Shown: piece after piece, positions 19,944-30,199 of the stretch | Layout of the letters: every line of letters begins with the position of its first letter | How positions within the stretch are numbered: the stretch's first letter is position 1 | From: Desulfuromonadales bacterium | GTDB lineage: Bacteria > Desulfobacterota > Desulfuromonadia > Desulfuromonadales > UBA2197 | Direction: 5' to 3' | Length of the DNA: 35,569 nt | Assembly (NCBI GenBank): GCA_014859605.1 | Contig: JACUTW010000020.1 | Location: 1 to 35,569, forward strand | Notes under the pieces: generated by a model | The model's input: only the letters and a program-made list of their open reading frames with translations | The model's database searches: none | Told to the model about the DNA's origin: nothing | Position numbers and translations under genes: made by a program

Positions 19944-20041
19944 TTTCTCCTTAGGTTAAATTTGTCAACGGCCAAAAGCCGTCGCCGGATCTGGAGGGGG
20001 AGCCGTATCCCCCCAGTTCACGGGGTGTGAAACAGCTGAGC
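19944..20041 (-). promoter_or_regulatory. Structured rpmI-rplT intercistronic RNA
   Basis: On the minus strand this gap can form a G/C-rich hairpin (CTGGGGGG near 20014 with CCCCCTCCAG near 19992) and a smaller one (ACGGC TTTTG GCCGT near 19972). It ends in an AAGGAG ribosome-binding site for rplT. It could be an L20 autoregulatory site, but that is inferred only from position and folding. Confidence 0.35.
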
Positions 20042-25149: not shown

Positions 25150-27468
25150 ATGGCAGGGCCGATTACCACACTGCAAGAACGTTGTCGCAAATGCTATTCC
25201 TGCGTCCGCAACTGTCCGGTGAAAGCAATCAAAGTTCATAAGGACCATGCAGAAATCATTGATAGCCGCTGTATCGGTTGCGGCATCTGTGTCCGGGCCT
25301 GCTCCCAGCAGGCCAAAGTCATTGCCGACAGCATTCAGACCGTGCAAAGGCTCATGCAAGGGAGTGACGCGATCGTTGCTATTCTTGGCTGTTCTTACCC
25401 GGCCTTCTTCAACGATATCCGTCCCGGACAACTCGCCGCCGGCATCAAGGCTCTGGGCTTTTCCGAAGTACACGAAGGCGCCAGCGGCGTCGAACTGATC
25501 CGGCAAGCCTACCGTTCCGAGATCGAGAATCAGGGAAAATGCGCTCCCCCTCTCTTTTCGAGTCACTGCCCGGCGATTGTCGATCTGATTGAACGCCACT
25601 ATCCGCAGCTTTTACGCAACCTGCTCAAGACGGTGTCACCGATGATTGCCGCCGGACGTTTCATCAAAGAGACCCTCGGCGCCCAAACCAAAGTCGTCTA
25701 TATCAGCTCCTGCATTGCCGGAAAGTTTGAAATTCAAGCCGAACAGGTCAGTGATGCCATCGATGTCGTTCTGACCTACAAAGAGTTGACGCAAATGCTC
25801 AAGAACCAAAAGATCGACTTGAGCCGCCTGCCCAGCCAGCCCTTCGCCGGCATCCCCCCCCATAATGAAAGCCGGCTCTTTTCTATCGCCGGGGGCCCCC
25901 ACAGCGCGTTTGGGGTCAAGAGCGACATGTTTCACCCGGAATTTCTCAGCTCCGAAGGTCCGGAAAATGCCCTGGAAATTATCCGCGACCTGGCAGCGGG
26001 AAGAATCACCCCCCGCTTCGTGGATATCCGCTTTTGCACCGGCGGCTGTATCGGCGGCTGTATCGGCGGGCCGGGCAAAAACAACCGCCTGACGACCTTC
26101 AGCAAGCGCAACCTCATCTACCAGCACGCACACAGCGAAGTCCCTTATCAGACCGCCAGTCATTACAATAGAGCAGAGCCAAAGATCGTTATCAATCGCA
26201 CCTTCAGAAACAAGCATAAACGCCTGGAACTGCCGAACGGTGACAGCGTGCGCAACATCCTGCAATCGATCAATAAATTTGTTGAAGGGGACGAATTGAA
26301 TTGCGGCGCCTGTGGTTACGCCACCTGCCGGGAATATGCCGTTGCGGTCTTTCAGGGATTGGCGGAACAGGAGATGTGCCTTCCCTATGCGGTTAAACGC
26401 TTGGAAGAGGATCACTCTACGTTAACGCAAAAATTTGAACTAGTCCAACGCGCCTTGGCGCAGGAAGTCGGATCATCGGCGATCGTCGGTGAAGATCCCC
26501 GCACCATCGATATTCTCGGACTTATTCATCAGGTCGCACCGACGCCGACGACCGTGCTGATTCGCGGCGAGAGCGGAACCGGCAAAGAGTTGACCGCACG
26601 AGCCATCCATGAAAAGAGCCTGCGCGCCGACAAACCCCTTGTCACCATCAACTGCACGACGATCACCGACAGCCTTTTGGAGAGCGAGCTCTTCGGTCAC
26701 AAAAAAGGGGCCTTTACCGGCGCCATTGGTGACAAAAAAGGGCTCTTCGAAGCCGCGAACGGCGGCACCATCTTTCTCGATGAAATCGGCGACATTACCC
26801 CAAAACTGCAAGCGGAACTTTTGCGCGTTCTCGACAACGGTGAAATTCGCCCGGTCGGGGGGAATGCCCCGATCAAAGTGGATGTCCGCCTGATTGCCGC
26901 GACCAATAAAGACCTGGAAACAGGCATCCGCGAAGGCTGGTTTCGCGAAGATCTCTTTTATCGCCTCAATGTCTTTACCATCTCCCAGCCACCGCTGCGC
27001 AGTCGTCTCGAATCCCTGCCGGCCCTGGTGGAGAATTTTCGGGCCCGGGCCAGTCGCCGTCTCAACAAACCGATCAAAGGGATCGATGAGCGAGCACTGC
27101 GGGCGTTGATGCGCTATCCCTGGCCGGGCAATATTCGCGAACTGCAAAACATCATTGAACGCGCCTCGGTCCTTGCCCAGGACAGCGTCATCCGCCTGGA
27201 GAATCTCCCGGTCGTCTTCACAGAACTCTCCATGAGCGAAGGGCGCACCGAGACCGATCAGACAACGCCGAGCTTTCGCTCACAACGTGACAAACATATT
27301 GGTCAAATGGAGAAGAATCTCCTCATCCATTTTCTCCGGGAAGCCGGAGGAAATGTATCGGCGGCGGCAATTCAGGCCGGAATCCCCCGCCGCACCTTTT
27401 ATCGCCTCCTCGATCGCAACGGTTTAAGTGGCAAGGAATTCAATAAAAACAGGGCGGAACAACTTTAG
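25150..27468 (+). CDS. Sigma-54 activator fused to ferredoxin and [FeFe]-hydrogenase-like sensor domains
   Basis: A 772-residue single-chain regulator, started at the ATG at 25150 behind CAGGAG. Domains: two [4Fe-4S] ferredoxin motifs (CRKCYSCVRNCP, 12-23; CIGCGICVRACS, 41-52); an [FeFe]-hydrogenase large-subunit-like domain (about 70-310); a CX2CX4CX16C Fe-S domain (C385, C388, C393, C410); a sigma-54 AAA+ domain (about 440-690; Walker A GESGTGKE at 473, GAFTGA at 520, Walker B TIFLDEIGD); and a Fis-type HTH (about 725-760). The four H-cluster ligand cysteines appear kept: C140 (SSHCP), C188 (SSCIAGK), C296 and C300 (FCTGGCIGG). The proton-relay cysteine of catalytic enzymes (TSCCP) is histidine 139. 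This pattern fits a sensory rather than catalytic hydrogenase. There is no PAS or receiver domain. The ligand (H2, redox state, CO or NO) is not known. Confidence 0.92.
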   Translation: MAGPITTLQERCRKCYSCVRNCPVKAIKVHKDHAEIIDSRCIGCGICVRACSQQAKVIADSIQTVQRLMQGSDAIVAILGCSYPAFFNDIRPGQLAAGIKALGFSEVHEGASGVELIRQAYRSEIENQGKCAPPLFSSHCPAIVDLIERHYPQLLRNLLKTVSPMIAAGRFIKETLGAQTKVVYISSCIAGKFEIQAEQVSDAIDVVLTYKELTQMLKNQKIDLSRLPSQPFAGIPPHNESRLFSIAGGPHSAFGVKSDMFHPEFLSSEGPENALEIIRDLAAGRITPRFVDIRFCTGGCIGGCIGGPGKNNRLTTFSKRNLIYQHAHSEVPYQTASHYNRAEPKIVINRTFRNKHKRLELPNGDSVRNILQSINKFVEGDELNCGACGYATCREYAVAVFQGLAEQEMCLPYAVKRLEEDHSTLTQKFELVQRALAQEVGSSAIVGEDPRTIDILGLIHQVAPTPTTVLIRGESGTGKELTARAIHEKSLRADKPLVTINCTTITDSLLESELFGHKKGAFTGAIGDKKGLFEAANGGTIFLDEIGDITPKLQAELLRVLDNGEIRPVGGNAPIKVDVRLIAATNKDLETGIREGWFREDLFYRLNVFTISQPPLRSRLESLPALVENFRARASRRLNKPIKGIDERALRALMRYPWPGNIRELQNIIERASVLAQDSVIRLENLPVVFTELSMSEGRTETDQTTPSFRSQRDKHIGQMEKNLLIHFLREAGGNVSAAAIQAGIPRRTFYRLLDRNGLSGKEFNKNRAEQL

Positions 27469-27484
27469 TGCCAAAATTGACACA
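27467..27484 (+). promoter_or_regulatory. Operator-like palindrome A
   Basis: AGTGCCA-AAAT-TGACACA, overlapping the regulator's stop codon. Its centre is 32 bases (about three turns) from site B and about 216 bases before the predicted sigma-54 start. Confidence 0.6.
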
Positions 27485-27498
27485 CATCATCGCGATAC

Positions 27499-27516
27499 TG
27501 TGTCAAAAGTGACACA
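27499..27516 (+). promoter_or_regulatory. Operator-like palindrome B (perfect)
   Basis: TGTGTCA-AAAG-TGACACA, a perfect palindrome that extends one further matched pair plus one on each side (27497-27518). It is the best copy and probably the core enhancer site for the upstream-encoded activator. Confidence 0.75.
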
Positions 27517-27565: not shown

Positions 27566-27583
27566 TGTGCCACAACTGACACA
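27566..27583 (+). promoter_or_regulatory. Operator-like palindrome C
   Basis: TGTGCCA-CAAC-TGACACA, one mismatch from the perfect palindrome, centred about 117 bases before the predicted sigma-54 start. This is the normal range for an enhancer-binding protein. A much weaker match (GGCGCCA-AAAC-TGAACTT) lies at 27525-27542. Confidence 0.7.
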
Positions 27584-27665: not shown

Positions 27666-27681
27666 TGGCACGGCCATTGCT
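27666..27681 (+). promoter_or_regulatory. Sigma-54 promoter (-24/-12)
   Basis: TGGCACG-GCCA-TTGCT matches the sigma-54 consensus TGGCACG-N4-TTGCW at every defined base, with GG at 27667-27668 and GC at 27679-27680. Transcription should begin near 27692. It follows an A-rich stretch and three enhancer-like palindromes. Confidence 0.9.
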
Positions 27682-27691
27682 ATAATGAAAA

Positions 27692-27787
27692 CTATGAACG
27701 GGGAAAAAGACTTGGTTTACCACCGACATCCACCCCCCTTTGCGCCGTCCGGTTCTCTCTCCCCGGACGGCGCTTTTTTTATTTTTT
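27692..27787 (+). ncRNA. Predicted sigma-54-dependent small RNA
   Basis: Between the sigma-54 promoter and a strong intrinsic terminator lies a unit of about 95 bases. The only ATG-led frames inside it run through the terminator without a stop and lack a ribosome-binding site, so coding is unlikely. The RNA would have an unpaired 5' half with a C-rich run (about 27730-27739, ccacccccctt) that could pair with G-rich ribosome-binding sites, followed by the terminator hairpin. No known RNA family was recognised, and its targets are unknown. It is placed directly after the gene of the Fe-S/sigma-54 regulator, its probable activator. Confidence 0.65.
27742..27787 (+). terminator. Strong intrinsic terminator before ptsP
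   Basis: GCGCCGTCCGG (27742-27752) pairs with CCGGACGGCGC (27763-27773), an 11-bp GC-rich stem with a 10-base loop, followed by TTTTTTTATTTTTT. It separates the sigma-54 transcript from ptsP. Confidence 0.93.
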
Positions 27788-27850: not shown

Positions 27851-30199
27851 ATGCCCATTAACAAAACTGAAAATTTCGGTATCAGTACCCTTGAGGATAT
27901 CAGCGCCCTGATTCTGCAATCCCACGATCTCGAAGAGACTCTGGGGAACATTGTCGCTCTCGTTGCCAAGCGCATGGGGACGGAGGTCTGCTCCATCTAC
28001 CTCTTTGACGACGACGGCGACACCTTACGGTTGCGGGCATCGAAAGGTCTTTCCCCCCGCTCGGTCGGCAAGGTCTCGATGAAACTCGGCGAGGGCTTAA
28101 CCGGTCTGGCCGTCGAAGAACGGCGGGTGGTCTCCATTCCGGAACCCCACAATCATCCGCGTTATCGCTACTTTAAAGAGACCGGGGAGGAGCGCTATCA
28201 CTCTTTTCTCGGCATCCCTCTCTTTGACCGGAAAAATCCCATCGGCGTCATCGTCATCCAGACAAAAGAACCCCGCACCTTTATCAACGAAGAGATCAGC
28301 GCCCTCTCCACCATTGCCTTTCAAATCGCTTCGATCGTTATCAATGCCCGACTCCTTGAATCGATCGGCCAGAAAGAGGAAGAGTCGCGCCATGTCGCCC
28401 TGGAGCTGGAGAAGGCGCGATCGACATTTCTCAACAACAAGAAGAAAAAAAAGGGGAAAGAGTCGCAGTCGATCCTGCGCGGGACAGTCGCTTACCCGGG
28501 ACTGGCGACGGGATCGGCACATGTTCTCGATGAACGCCTCGGATTTACCGATCTTCTCGATGATGAATGGACTGACCCGGATTTTGAACTCAAACGCCTG
28601 GAAAGTGCGCTCGAAAAGACCCGGATCGAGACCATCTATCTGGAAAAGCAGGTCGCCGAACGCCTCTCCGAAGATGATGCCGCAATCTTTCACACCCACC
28701 TGATGATCCTGGAGGATCGTGGTTTCATTGAAAAATTGCGCCGCGAAATTGAGCAGGGGTGCAGTGCCCAACATGCCTTAAAGACCGTTGCCGGAGAATA
28801 TATCGAAGCCTTTTCCCACATGGAGGACTCTTACCTGCGCGAGCGGGCCGTCGACATGGAAGATATCGCCCGTCGCCTCCATGCCAACATCCTCGGCAAC
28901 GAGCACCAACCCTTACAACTCAAGCATGCCGGCGTCCTGGTCGCCCGCAGCCTGCTCCCTTCTGACATGGCCACCCTCGACCACAGCAAGGTGCGCGGCA
29001 TTGTCACGGAAGTCGGCGAGATGAACTCGCATGCGGTTATCATGGCGAAATCCCTCGGCATTCCCGCCCTGGTCGGAGTCTTCGGCGTTGTGCAGGCGAT
29101 TCGTCCTGACGACCACCTCATCCTCGATGCCAATTCCGGATGCCTGTATATCAATCCGCCCCGCCACATCGTCACGGAATATCTGCGCATTGAACGGGAT
29201 CGGGACAAAGAGGAAGAATCTCTGGAAGGGTTCCGCGACCAACTGGCGGTAACCAGCGACGGCGAACGCGTCTGCCTGCGCGCCAACGTCGGTCTGGTCA
29301 GCGACATCGGTATAGCTGTGCGCAATGGCGCCGAAGGCATCGGCCTGTACCGCACAGAATTCCCTTACATGACCCGCAACTCTTTCCCGTCCCGACACGA
29401 TCAATACCTCCTTTACCGGCGCATGGTTGAAGGCTTTGCCGGCCAACCGGTGACGATCCGGACCCTCGATATCGGCGGCGACAAGGCTTTGCCCTACTTC
29501 CCCCTCCCCAAAGAGGATAACCCCTTTATGGGCTGGCGCTCGGTGCGCGTCTCCCTTGACTATCAAGATATTTTTCGCACCCAGATCGAAGCGATCTTGA
29601 TGGCGGCGGTGCATGGCAACGTCAAGCTCCTCTTTCCGATGATCAGCGGTGTCGAGGAGATCTTGTCCTGCCGGAAGATTGTCGAAGAAGCGGCCGAAAA
29701 TTTAAGGCGCGAGGGGATTCCTTTTTCCGAGACCGTCCCGGCTGGAATCATGATCGAAGTTCCGGCAGCGGTGCAATTAGTCGGCATGTTGGCAAAGCAT
29801 GTTGACTTTTTTGCCCTCGGCACTAACGATCTGGTGCAATACATGCTCGCCGCCGACCGCAACAATCCTTTGGTGAAAAACTATTATGATCCCTTTCACC
29901 CTGCCGTCCTGCACGCCCTGCGGCATGTGGCCGACGTCGCCCGCACTCATAACAAAGGGCTCTGTATCTGCGGTGAAATGGCGACCGACCCGCAAGCCCT
30001 GCTCTTTTTGATCGGCATCGGTGTCCGCGAAATGTCGATGGCAGCACCCTACATTCCCAAAGTCAAACAGATCCTGTCCACCCTCAACACCAGCGCGACC
30101 CGGAAGATCGCCAAAGAGATCTTGACCCTGGAAAACAGCAGTGAAATTCGTCAGCATCTCGGTGCCGCTCTCATGCGCAGCAAGAAGACCACGCGATAA
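27851..30199 (+). CDS. ptsP: Phosphoenolpyruvate--protein phosphotransferase PtsP (enzyme I-Ntr)
   Basis: PtsP takes phosphate from PEP and passes it to the NPr carrier of the nitrogen-related PTS, a regulatory chain. The product is 782 residues from the ATG at 27851 (AGGA six bases upstream). It has an N-terminal GAF sensor domain (about 15-165), a basic KKKKKGKE linker, an NPr-binding helical domain, then the phosphohistidine domain with MNSHAVIMAKSLGIPALVG (His394 is the expected phosphorylation site). The C-terminal PEP-binding TIM barrel follows (ICGEMATDP, SMAAPYIPKVKQ). It overlaps the Nudix gene start in TAATG. The NPr and EIIA-Ntr genes are not in this window. Confidence 0.95.
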   Translation: MPINKTENFGISTLEDISALILQSHDLEETLGNIVALVAKRMGTEVCSIYLFDDDGDTLRLRASKGLSPRSVGKVSMKLGEGLTGLAVEERRVVSIPEPHNHPRYRYFKETGEERYHSFLGIPLFDRKNPIGVIVIQTKEPRTFINEEISALSTIAFQIASIVINARLLESIGQKEEESRHVALELEKARSTFLNNKKKKKGKESQSILRGTVAYPGLATGSAHVLDERLGFTDLLDDEWTDPDFELKRLESALEKTRIETIYLEKQVAERLSEDDAAIFHTHLMILEDRGFIEKLRREIEQGCSAQHALKTVAGEYIEAFSHMEDSYLRERAVDMEDIARRLHANILGNEHQPLQLKHAGVLVARSLLPSDMATLDHSKVRGIVTEVGEMNSHAVIMAKSLGIPALVGVFGVVQAIRPDDHLILDANSGCLYINPPRHIVTEYLRIERDRDKEEESLEGFRDQLAVTSDGERVCLRANVGLVSDIGIAVRNGAEGIGLYRTEFPYMTRNSFPSRHDQYLLYRRMVEGFAGQPVTIRTLDIGGDKALPYFPLPKEDNPFMGWRSVRVSLDYQDIFRTQIEAILMAAVHGNVKLLFPMISGVEEILSCRKIVEEAAENLRREGIPFSETVPAGIMIEVPAAVQLVGMLAKHVDFFALGTNDLVQYMLAADRNNPLVKNYYDPFHPAVLHALRHVADVARTHNKGLCICGEMATDPQALLFLIGIGVREMSMAAPYIPKVKQILSTLNTSATRKIAKEILTLENSSEIRQHLGAALMRSKKTTR

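Follow-up and report, generated by a model that had tools for sequence, protein, structure and literature searches.

Small RNAs (sRNAs) made by sigma-54 RNA polymerase with the help of an enhancer-binding protein are known from Pseudomonas. NrsZ, located in the ntrC-PA5126 intergenic region, is a processed, RpoN-dependent RNA of ~226 nt whose activator gene is adjacent (PMC8395346), and CrcZ, which is activated by CbrB and RpoN and measures 407 nt in P. aeruginosa, titrates Hfq by means of A-rich stretches (PMC4063720). Pairing through C-rich sequence is known from other sRNAs: C-rich unpaired regions of the redox-linked RoxS/RsaE RNAs of Bacillus and Staphylococcus pair with Shine-Dalgarno (SD) sequences, the TCA cycle being among the targets (PMC4409812), and the iron-sparing sRNAs IsrR, FsrA, and RyhB act as repressors of Fe-S and TCA enzymes, aconitase among them, C-rich motifs being used by IsrR and FsrA (PMC9410917). 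In Helicobacter pylori RepG, for which no sigma-54 control is described in the work cited, the C/U-rich terminator loop is the pairing site, its partner being a G-repeat of the tlpB leader (PMC8295292).

The locus reported here belongs to a Desulfuromonadales bacterium. Its arrangement is not new, because NrsZ and CrcZ already provide examples of sigma-54 sRNAs under the control of an enhancer-binding protein; what is new is the RNA family, the type of sensor, and the target set. The window, that is, the whole stretch of 35,569 nt that was analysed, contains the following features:

25150-27468, plus strand: regulator gene; Fer4, [FeFe]-hydrogenase-like (Fe_hyd_lg_C), FeS, and sigma-54 AAA+ domains, the last with GAFTGA, and a Fis-type HTH (from Pfam, orthologues, and motifs).
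27468-27483, no strand: palindrome 1, GTGCCAAAATTGACAC, enhancer-like site overlapping the regulator stop codon, 0 mismatches to GTGYCA-N4-TGRCAC.
27500-27515, no strand: palindrome 2, GTGTCAAAAGTGACAC, enhancer-like site, 0 mismatches to the same pattern.
27567-27582, no strand: palindrome 3, GTGCCACAACTGACAC, enhancer-like site, likewise 0 mismatches.
27666-27681, plus strand: sigma-54 -24/-12 promoter, TGGCACGGCCATTGCT, the window's one perfect site and conserved in 39 related loci.
27692-27780, plus strand: small RNA of ~89 nt, counted from the putative +1 up to where the T tract ends (71.2 bits with covariance model R1; fold z -5.1).
27700-27738, plus strand: 5' domain, in which GGGG (27700-27703) closes with CCCC (27735-27738) (fold; pairing counted on alignments).
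27742-27780, plus strand: intrinsic terminator, an 11-bp stem (27742-27752/27763-27773) and T tract (fold; family conservation).
27753-27762, plus strand: terminator loop, UUCUCUCUCC, the proposed seed with core CUCUCUCC (core conservation; complement at ribosome-binding sites of TCA genes).
27852-30199, plus strand: ptsP (GAF and PTS enzyme I domains), the downstream neighbour, outside the unit (Pfam; not the neighbour in several relatives).

Elsewhere in the window, an L20-Deltaproteobacteria ribosomal protein leader RNA (Rfam RF03126) scores above its cut-off at 19947-20025 (minus strand), and an ORF with a Cas6 endoribonuclease domain (PF10040; 30747-31751, plus strand) follows a NUDIX gene, with no other cas gene among the genes examined.

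The promoter, TGGCACG-GCCA-TTGCT, is the one zero-mismatch sigma-54 site in the entire 35.6 kb, in which sites with up to two mismatches number 10 for 5.5 expected; its GG, C, and T-G-C positions are invariant across the 39 related loci. Transcription would start at about 27692, ~12 nt past the promoter GC, and stop at a T tract ending at about 27780, behind a G+C-rich stem with a 10-nt loop. The length of the unit varies from 87 to 122 nt among the 39 loci. The predicted fold of positions 27692-27784 has an energy of -34.4 kcal/mol (z = -5.1), equalled by none of 200 shuffles, and pairs most of the CCCC run of the RNA body with the 5' GGGG. Alignments give the helices modest support: on a structure-blind alignment 94% of the cells are paired, and the three pairs with changes on both sides are no more than column shuffles yield. 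Between the three palindromes and the -24 box downstream of them, the distances are 83, 150, and 182 nt. In the whole 2.76-Mb genome, an 18-bp form of the palindromes, TGTGNCAN4TGNCACA, is confined to two sites, both at the sRNA locus. Such palindromes precede the promoter in 37 of the 39 related loci, as compared with 0.003 per locus in shuffles, and those found away from the sRNA promoter are mostly immediately upstream of the regulator gene. In two related genomes (G042:C1:369871 and G051:C1:3869455), a further perfect palindrome follows the sRNA at a distance of ~3 kb.

When 58 genomes, almost all of them from Desulfuromonadales, were searched at the DNA level, 18 gave matches, mostly to the part made of the C-rich stretch and the terminator, and most of these have -24/-12 boxes ahead. 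We then used a covariance model built from the 24 better-aligned sequences, the L017/L018 type having had its 5' helix out of place in a first MAFFT alignment. With the best 15 candidates scored per genome, this model identified one copy per genome in at least 89 Desulfuromonadales genomes, including Malonomonas rubra as well as Desulfuromonas and Desulfuromonadales metagenome-assembled genomes; in the search of 277 genomes of the class, a single weak match came from outside the order. No Rfam family, RsaE/RoxS included, matched at its gathering score.

The common gene order is oppD-oppF-regulator-sRNA-ptsP. In all 38 close full-length orthologues of the regulator (at least ~60% identity), the promoter, RNA, and terminator follow directly downstream. 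Three diverged orthologues (L059-L061, 43-44% identity) have no GAFTGA, no RNA, and ptsP almost directly next. In each of the three, an enhancer-like palindrome is kept immediately before the regulator gene, which suggests that these regulators may have a role other than sigma-54 activation. Conversely, at seven loci (L098-L102, L106, and L032) no regulator gene stands between oppF and ptsP and the RNA is kept, so that another activator must exist in these genomes; the -24/-12 boxes are kept at six of the seven, the promoter being lost in G012 (L099).

These comparisons bear out part of what a sequence-only reading of the window had proposed, namely a perfect-consensus sigma-54 promoter, three enhancer-like sites, and a short terminated unit devoid of a credible ORF, combined into a sensor-operator-sRNA module. 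The comparison of the interval in related genomes by covariance analysis, which it had advised, revealed a real RNA family, and the module is supported by the linkage (38/38, vs. none of the three regulators without GAFTGA), by the near-unique enhancer sites, and by independence from ptsP. Comparing sequences thus establishes that there is an RNA gene with a promoter and enhancer-like sites, linked to an activation-competent regulator; the invariance of the loop and its complementarity to target leaders, described below, are established in the same way.

Could the unit be something other than a base-pairing sRNA? We give practically no credence to its encoding a small peptide. An ATG is present at 27694 inside the RNA, and Geobacterales have a ribbon-helix-helix (RHH) ORF at the same position relative to regulator and promoter. 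Against this, the frame opened by that ATG, the sole possible ORF of the unit, runs through the terminator and is not conserved, candidate frames in relatives also enter the terminator, and insertions and deletions in the alignment break the frame. A conserved peptide, the finding that the sequence-only reading had set against its own proposal, was looked for in the relatives and none was found, frame, start, and length differing among the sRNA homologues. It is also highly improbable that sigma-54 transcription serves a cis-acting leader or attenuator of ptsP, ending at the terminator or reading through. ptsP is indeed directly next in the window and in most relatives, but its position is inconsistent among them: the RNA stays beside the regulator with ptsP elsewhere in L036, L037, L051, L052, L055, and L056, and the regulators without GAFTGA have ptsP next and no such RNA. 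Because the RNA follows the regulator and not ptsP, we rejected this reading; moreover, the terminator is perfect in all members. Between terminator and ptsP there is a weak sigma-70-like promoter match, of a kind that is in itself no evidence of function. Hardly more credible is sequestration of a protein such as CsrA in place of base pairing. CsrA has been studied in Geobacter, and a conserved GGGGA near the 5' end holds a GGA motif, yet the predicted fold ties up most of the GGGG with CCCC, there is no conserved series of GGA hairpin loops, and the invariant element is C/U-rich.

That element is the core of the terminator loop. Its columns, C-U-C-U-C-U-C-C, are each 96-100% identical among 56 unique sequences, that is, above much of the stem. 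Terminator loops are ordinarily free to vary, so that this invariance points to a pairing site. The sequence-only reading had suggested that a C-rich stretch could be a seed against G-rich ribosome-binding sites: the C-rich pairing is upheld by complements at TCA genes, whereas the seed appears to be the loop CUCUCUCC and not the CCCCCC of the RNA body.

We searched for targets as exact loop complements, GGAGAGAG, followed by an ATG within 12 nt; this search started from the loop and was thus not blind to the hypothesis, but the functional coherence of the recurrent targets was not imposed. No genome has as many copies of the reversed pattern as of GGAGAGAG-type sites, an excess that is expected of an SD-like word, so that the counts alone mean little. 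Sites shared by two genomes of the window's genus include those of citrate synthase, aconitase B, class I fumarase, and NuoK, and the window's own genome has a further one at the NiFe hydrogenase small subunit. Clustering of sites from several genera showed that those of succinyl-CoA:acetate CoA-transferase recur in three genera and those of the NiFe hydrogenase large subunit in two; malate dehydrogenase, NuoL, and formate dehydrogenase sites were found in single genomes each. A pair of Hsp20 sites was discounted as a recurring group because the proteins are too distant (34% identity), and a cluster of five sites in G021 (L252, G021:C3:187746-194692) was set aside, its five genes belonging to an apparent prophage.

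Leaders of gltA (citrate synthase), acnB (aconitase B), and fum (class I fumarase) were then taken from 30 genomes, matches being counted in those bearing the sRNA. The ribosome-binding site of gltA contains the 8-nt GGAGAGAG in 14 of 15 genomes and 7 nt of it in the remaining one, with predicted loop-leader duplexes of -14.6 to -23.0 kcal/mol; that of acnB contains the 8 nt in 10/14, G018, G032, and G040 being without a match although the RNA is present; and that of fum contains 8 nt in 6/14 and 7 nt in 7 more. In control leaders of the same order (reg, ptsP, and oppD), matches of at least 7 nt were found in 0/65, most being of 2-4 nt, and the 8-mer precedes the start of none of the 426 long ORFs in the fetched loci. 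The target prediction that the sequence-only reading had called for yielded a coherent set of acetate-oxidation genes, comparable to the TCA targets of RoxS/RsaE, IsrR, and RyhB.

The most serious objection is that the RNA is real and sigma-54-driven, but that GGAGAGAG is simply the strong ribosome-binding site favoured by highly expressed genes, the loop acting as a generic anti-SD sequence or on other mRNAs. Indeed, GGAGAGAG is also good as an SD sequence, the 8-mer occurs before an ATG 20-54 times per genome, at many unrelated genes, and the gltA match is kept in four genomes in which no sRNA was detected among the best 15 candidates (G003, G029, G030, and G038), where a diverged copy or a recent loss is possible. 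On the other hand, the five genomes of the f3 lineage and G019 have neither a detected sRNA nor a gltA match. As the genomes without a detected sRNA are split in this respect, the contrast rests on few independent lineages. The control leaders, besides, are free of the match, the complement reaches beyond the SD core to include part of the spacer and is seen again in many families, with varying flanks, and the targets recurring between genera mostly belong to one pathway. We consider this objection unlikely to be right, though it deserves real weight. Our preferred explanation, which we regard as probable, is that the unit is a sigma-54-dependent trans-acting sRNA blocking translation of the mRNAs of the acetate-oxidising TCA cycle.

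The regulator has as its most likely start, here corrected, the ATG at 25150 (MAGPI, and MGPI in orthologues). Its GAFTGA loop is the sigma-54 contact. The hydrogenase-like domain retains, in SHCP, SSCIAGKFE, and CTGGC motifs, the four Cys for the [4Fe-4S] part of the H-cluster, and has a His in place of the proton-relay Cys in SHCP. The window's protein (25150-27468) reads CTGGCIGGCIGGPG where its relatives have CxGGCIGGPG, a four-residue CIGG duplication beside a cluster ligand. The maturation protein HydG was found above the cut-off in only 1 of 38 sRNA-bearing genomes, the window's genome not being that one (of HydE, HydF, and HydG, the search covered HydG), and is present in all three genomes with regulators lacking GAFTGA. 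Because of the His substitution and the absence of HydG in 37/38, this organism is unlikely to have a canonical H-cluster and so to sense H2, and the control by H2 that had been suggested from the sequence is not sustained. A sensor of Fe-S redox state, NO, or iron status appears more plausible.

The same regulator is present in the Geobacterales (Geomonas, Geotalea, Citrifermentans, and Geobacter; 54-68% identity), nearly always with GAFTGA, and the covariance model detected no sRNA there at E < 0.01. Instead, the regulator gene is followed by a palindrome, a -24/-12-like site, and a gene for an RHH protein of ~60 aa (MGRMRENPRYNV...) at L125, L128, L131, L135, L139, L145, and L146. One and the same sensor-promoter unit thus seems to end in an RNA in one order and in a protein in the neighbouring one. 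The Geobacterales RHH gene, which has GAGAGAGAA at its start, was also considered as an sRNA target and rejected, no sRNA being detected there and its Desulfuromonadales relatives having no match. Some Desulfuromonadales carry such a related RHH gene elsewhere, with its own -24/-12-like site; at L194, L196, and L197 (G016, G050, and G032), where the gene product begins MGKSVENPK..., this site reads TGGCAAC-N4-TTGCA and is preceded by GTGCCAN4TGGCAC-type palindromes, so that the RHH gene is there a possible second target of the regulator.

We propose the following scenario. Through its hydrogenase-like Fe-S domain, the regulator would probably sense not H2 but the redox state or the status of Fe-S clusters; it would bind the upstream palindromes and activate the -24/-12 promoter by its GAFTGA loop, so that sigma-54 RNA polymerase makes the ~90-nt trans-acting RNA on demand. 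The terminator hairpin would expose the invariant C/U-rich loop CUCUCUCC, which would pair with GGAGAGAG at the ribosome-binding sites of citrate synthase, aconitase B, and class I fumarase and block translation; succinyl-CoA:acetate CoA-transferase and malate dehydrogenase may be additional targets in some genera, as would, probably, the NiFe hydrogenase mRNA. The sign of regulation would be negative: the sensor probably turns down acetate oxidation post-transcriptionally. More tentatively, with the chances slightly against us, a hydrogenase-derived protein lacking H-cluster maturation may have become an Fe-S sensor that controls the Desulfuromonadales TCA cycle as a whole, by one sRNA acting at several ribosome-binding sites, the Geobacterales module having a small DNA-binding protein as output instead.

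Desulfuromonadales and their Geobacter relatives are acetate-oxidising metal and sulfur reducers, relevant to bioremediation and bioelectrochemistry. Our literature searches, which reached few subscription journals, found no paper on this sRNA family and no described central-metabolism sRNA in these groups. Because the sRNA is conserved and single-copy and comes with a named sensor, an operator, and targets that form a coherent set, the idea that acetate oxidation is controlled post-transcriptionally can be put to a direct test.

Within the same order, the Rfam 'atoC' RNA (RF01733) resembles the present RNA in having two hairpins, the second being terminator-like with a C/U-rich loop. It differs by its separate loci, its TATAAT-type promoter sequence, and its loop, CCCUCCU, and we rejected membership: the full-length match reaches 21.6 bits for a gathering cut-off of 50, and the matches above cut-off in relatives are at other loci. 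At L062-L067, this RNA, typed as cis-regulatory, looks like a two-hairpin RNA with a TATAAT promoter and an anti-SD terminator loop CCCUCCU, and may also be an sRNA. With RepG, our RNA shares a C/U-rich terminator loop as the pairing site, here a proposed one. Its proposed mode of action resembles that of RoxS/RsaE, IsrR, and FsrA. It has no sequence relation to RoxS/RsaE, which belong to another phylum and are under ResDE instead of sigma-54 control, and neither homology nor common gene order with IsrR, FsrA, and RyhB, which respond to iron under Fur control; its best-conserved target, citrate synthase, is not an Fe-S enzyme. The nearest parallels are in Pseudomonas. Like NrsZ, the locus combines a -24/-12 promoter, a terminated non-coding unit, an adjacent enhancer-binding protein with GAFTGA, and putative upstream activator sites; like CrcZ, it would produce an RpoN-dependent regulatory RNA driven by an enhancer-binding protein, here predicted from sequence, although its 87-122 nt in the 39 loci are far from the 407 nt of CrcZ, to which we therefore did not assign it. 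Unlike both, it pairs an RNA of only ~90 nt with a single sensor-activator fusion in place of a two-component system, and carries a C/U-rich loop seed directed, as we propose, at the TCA cycle.
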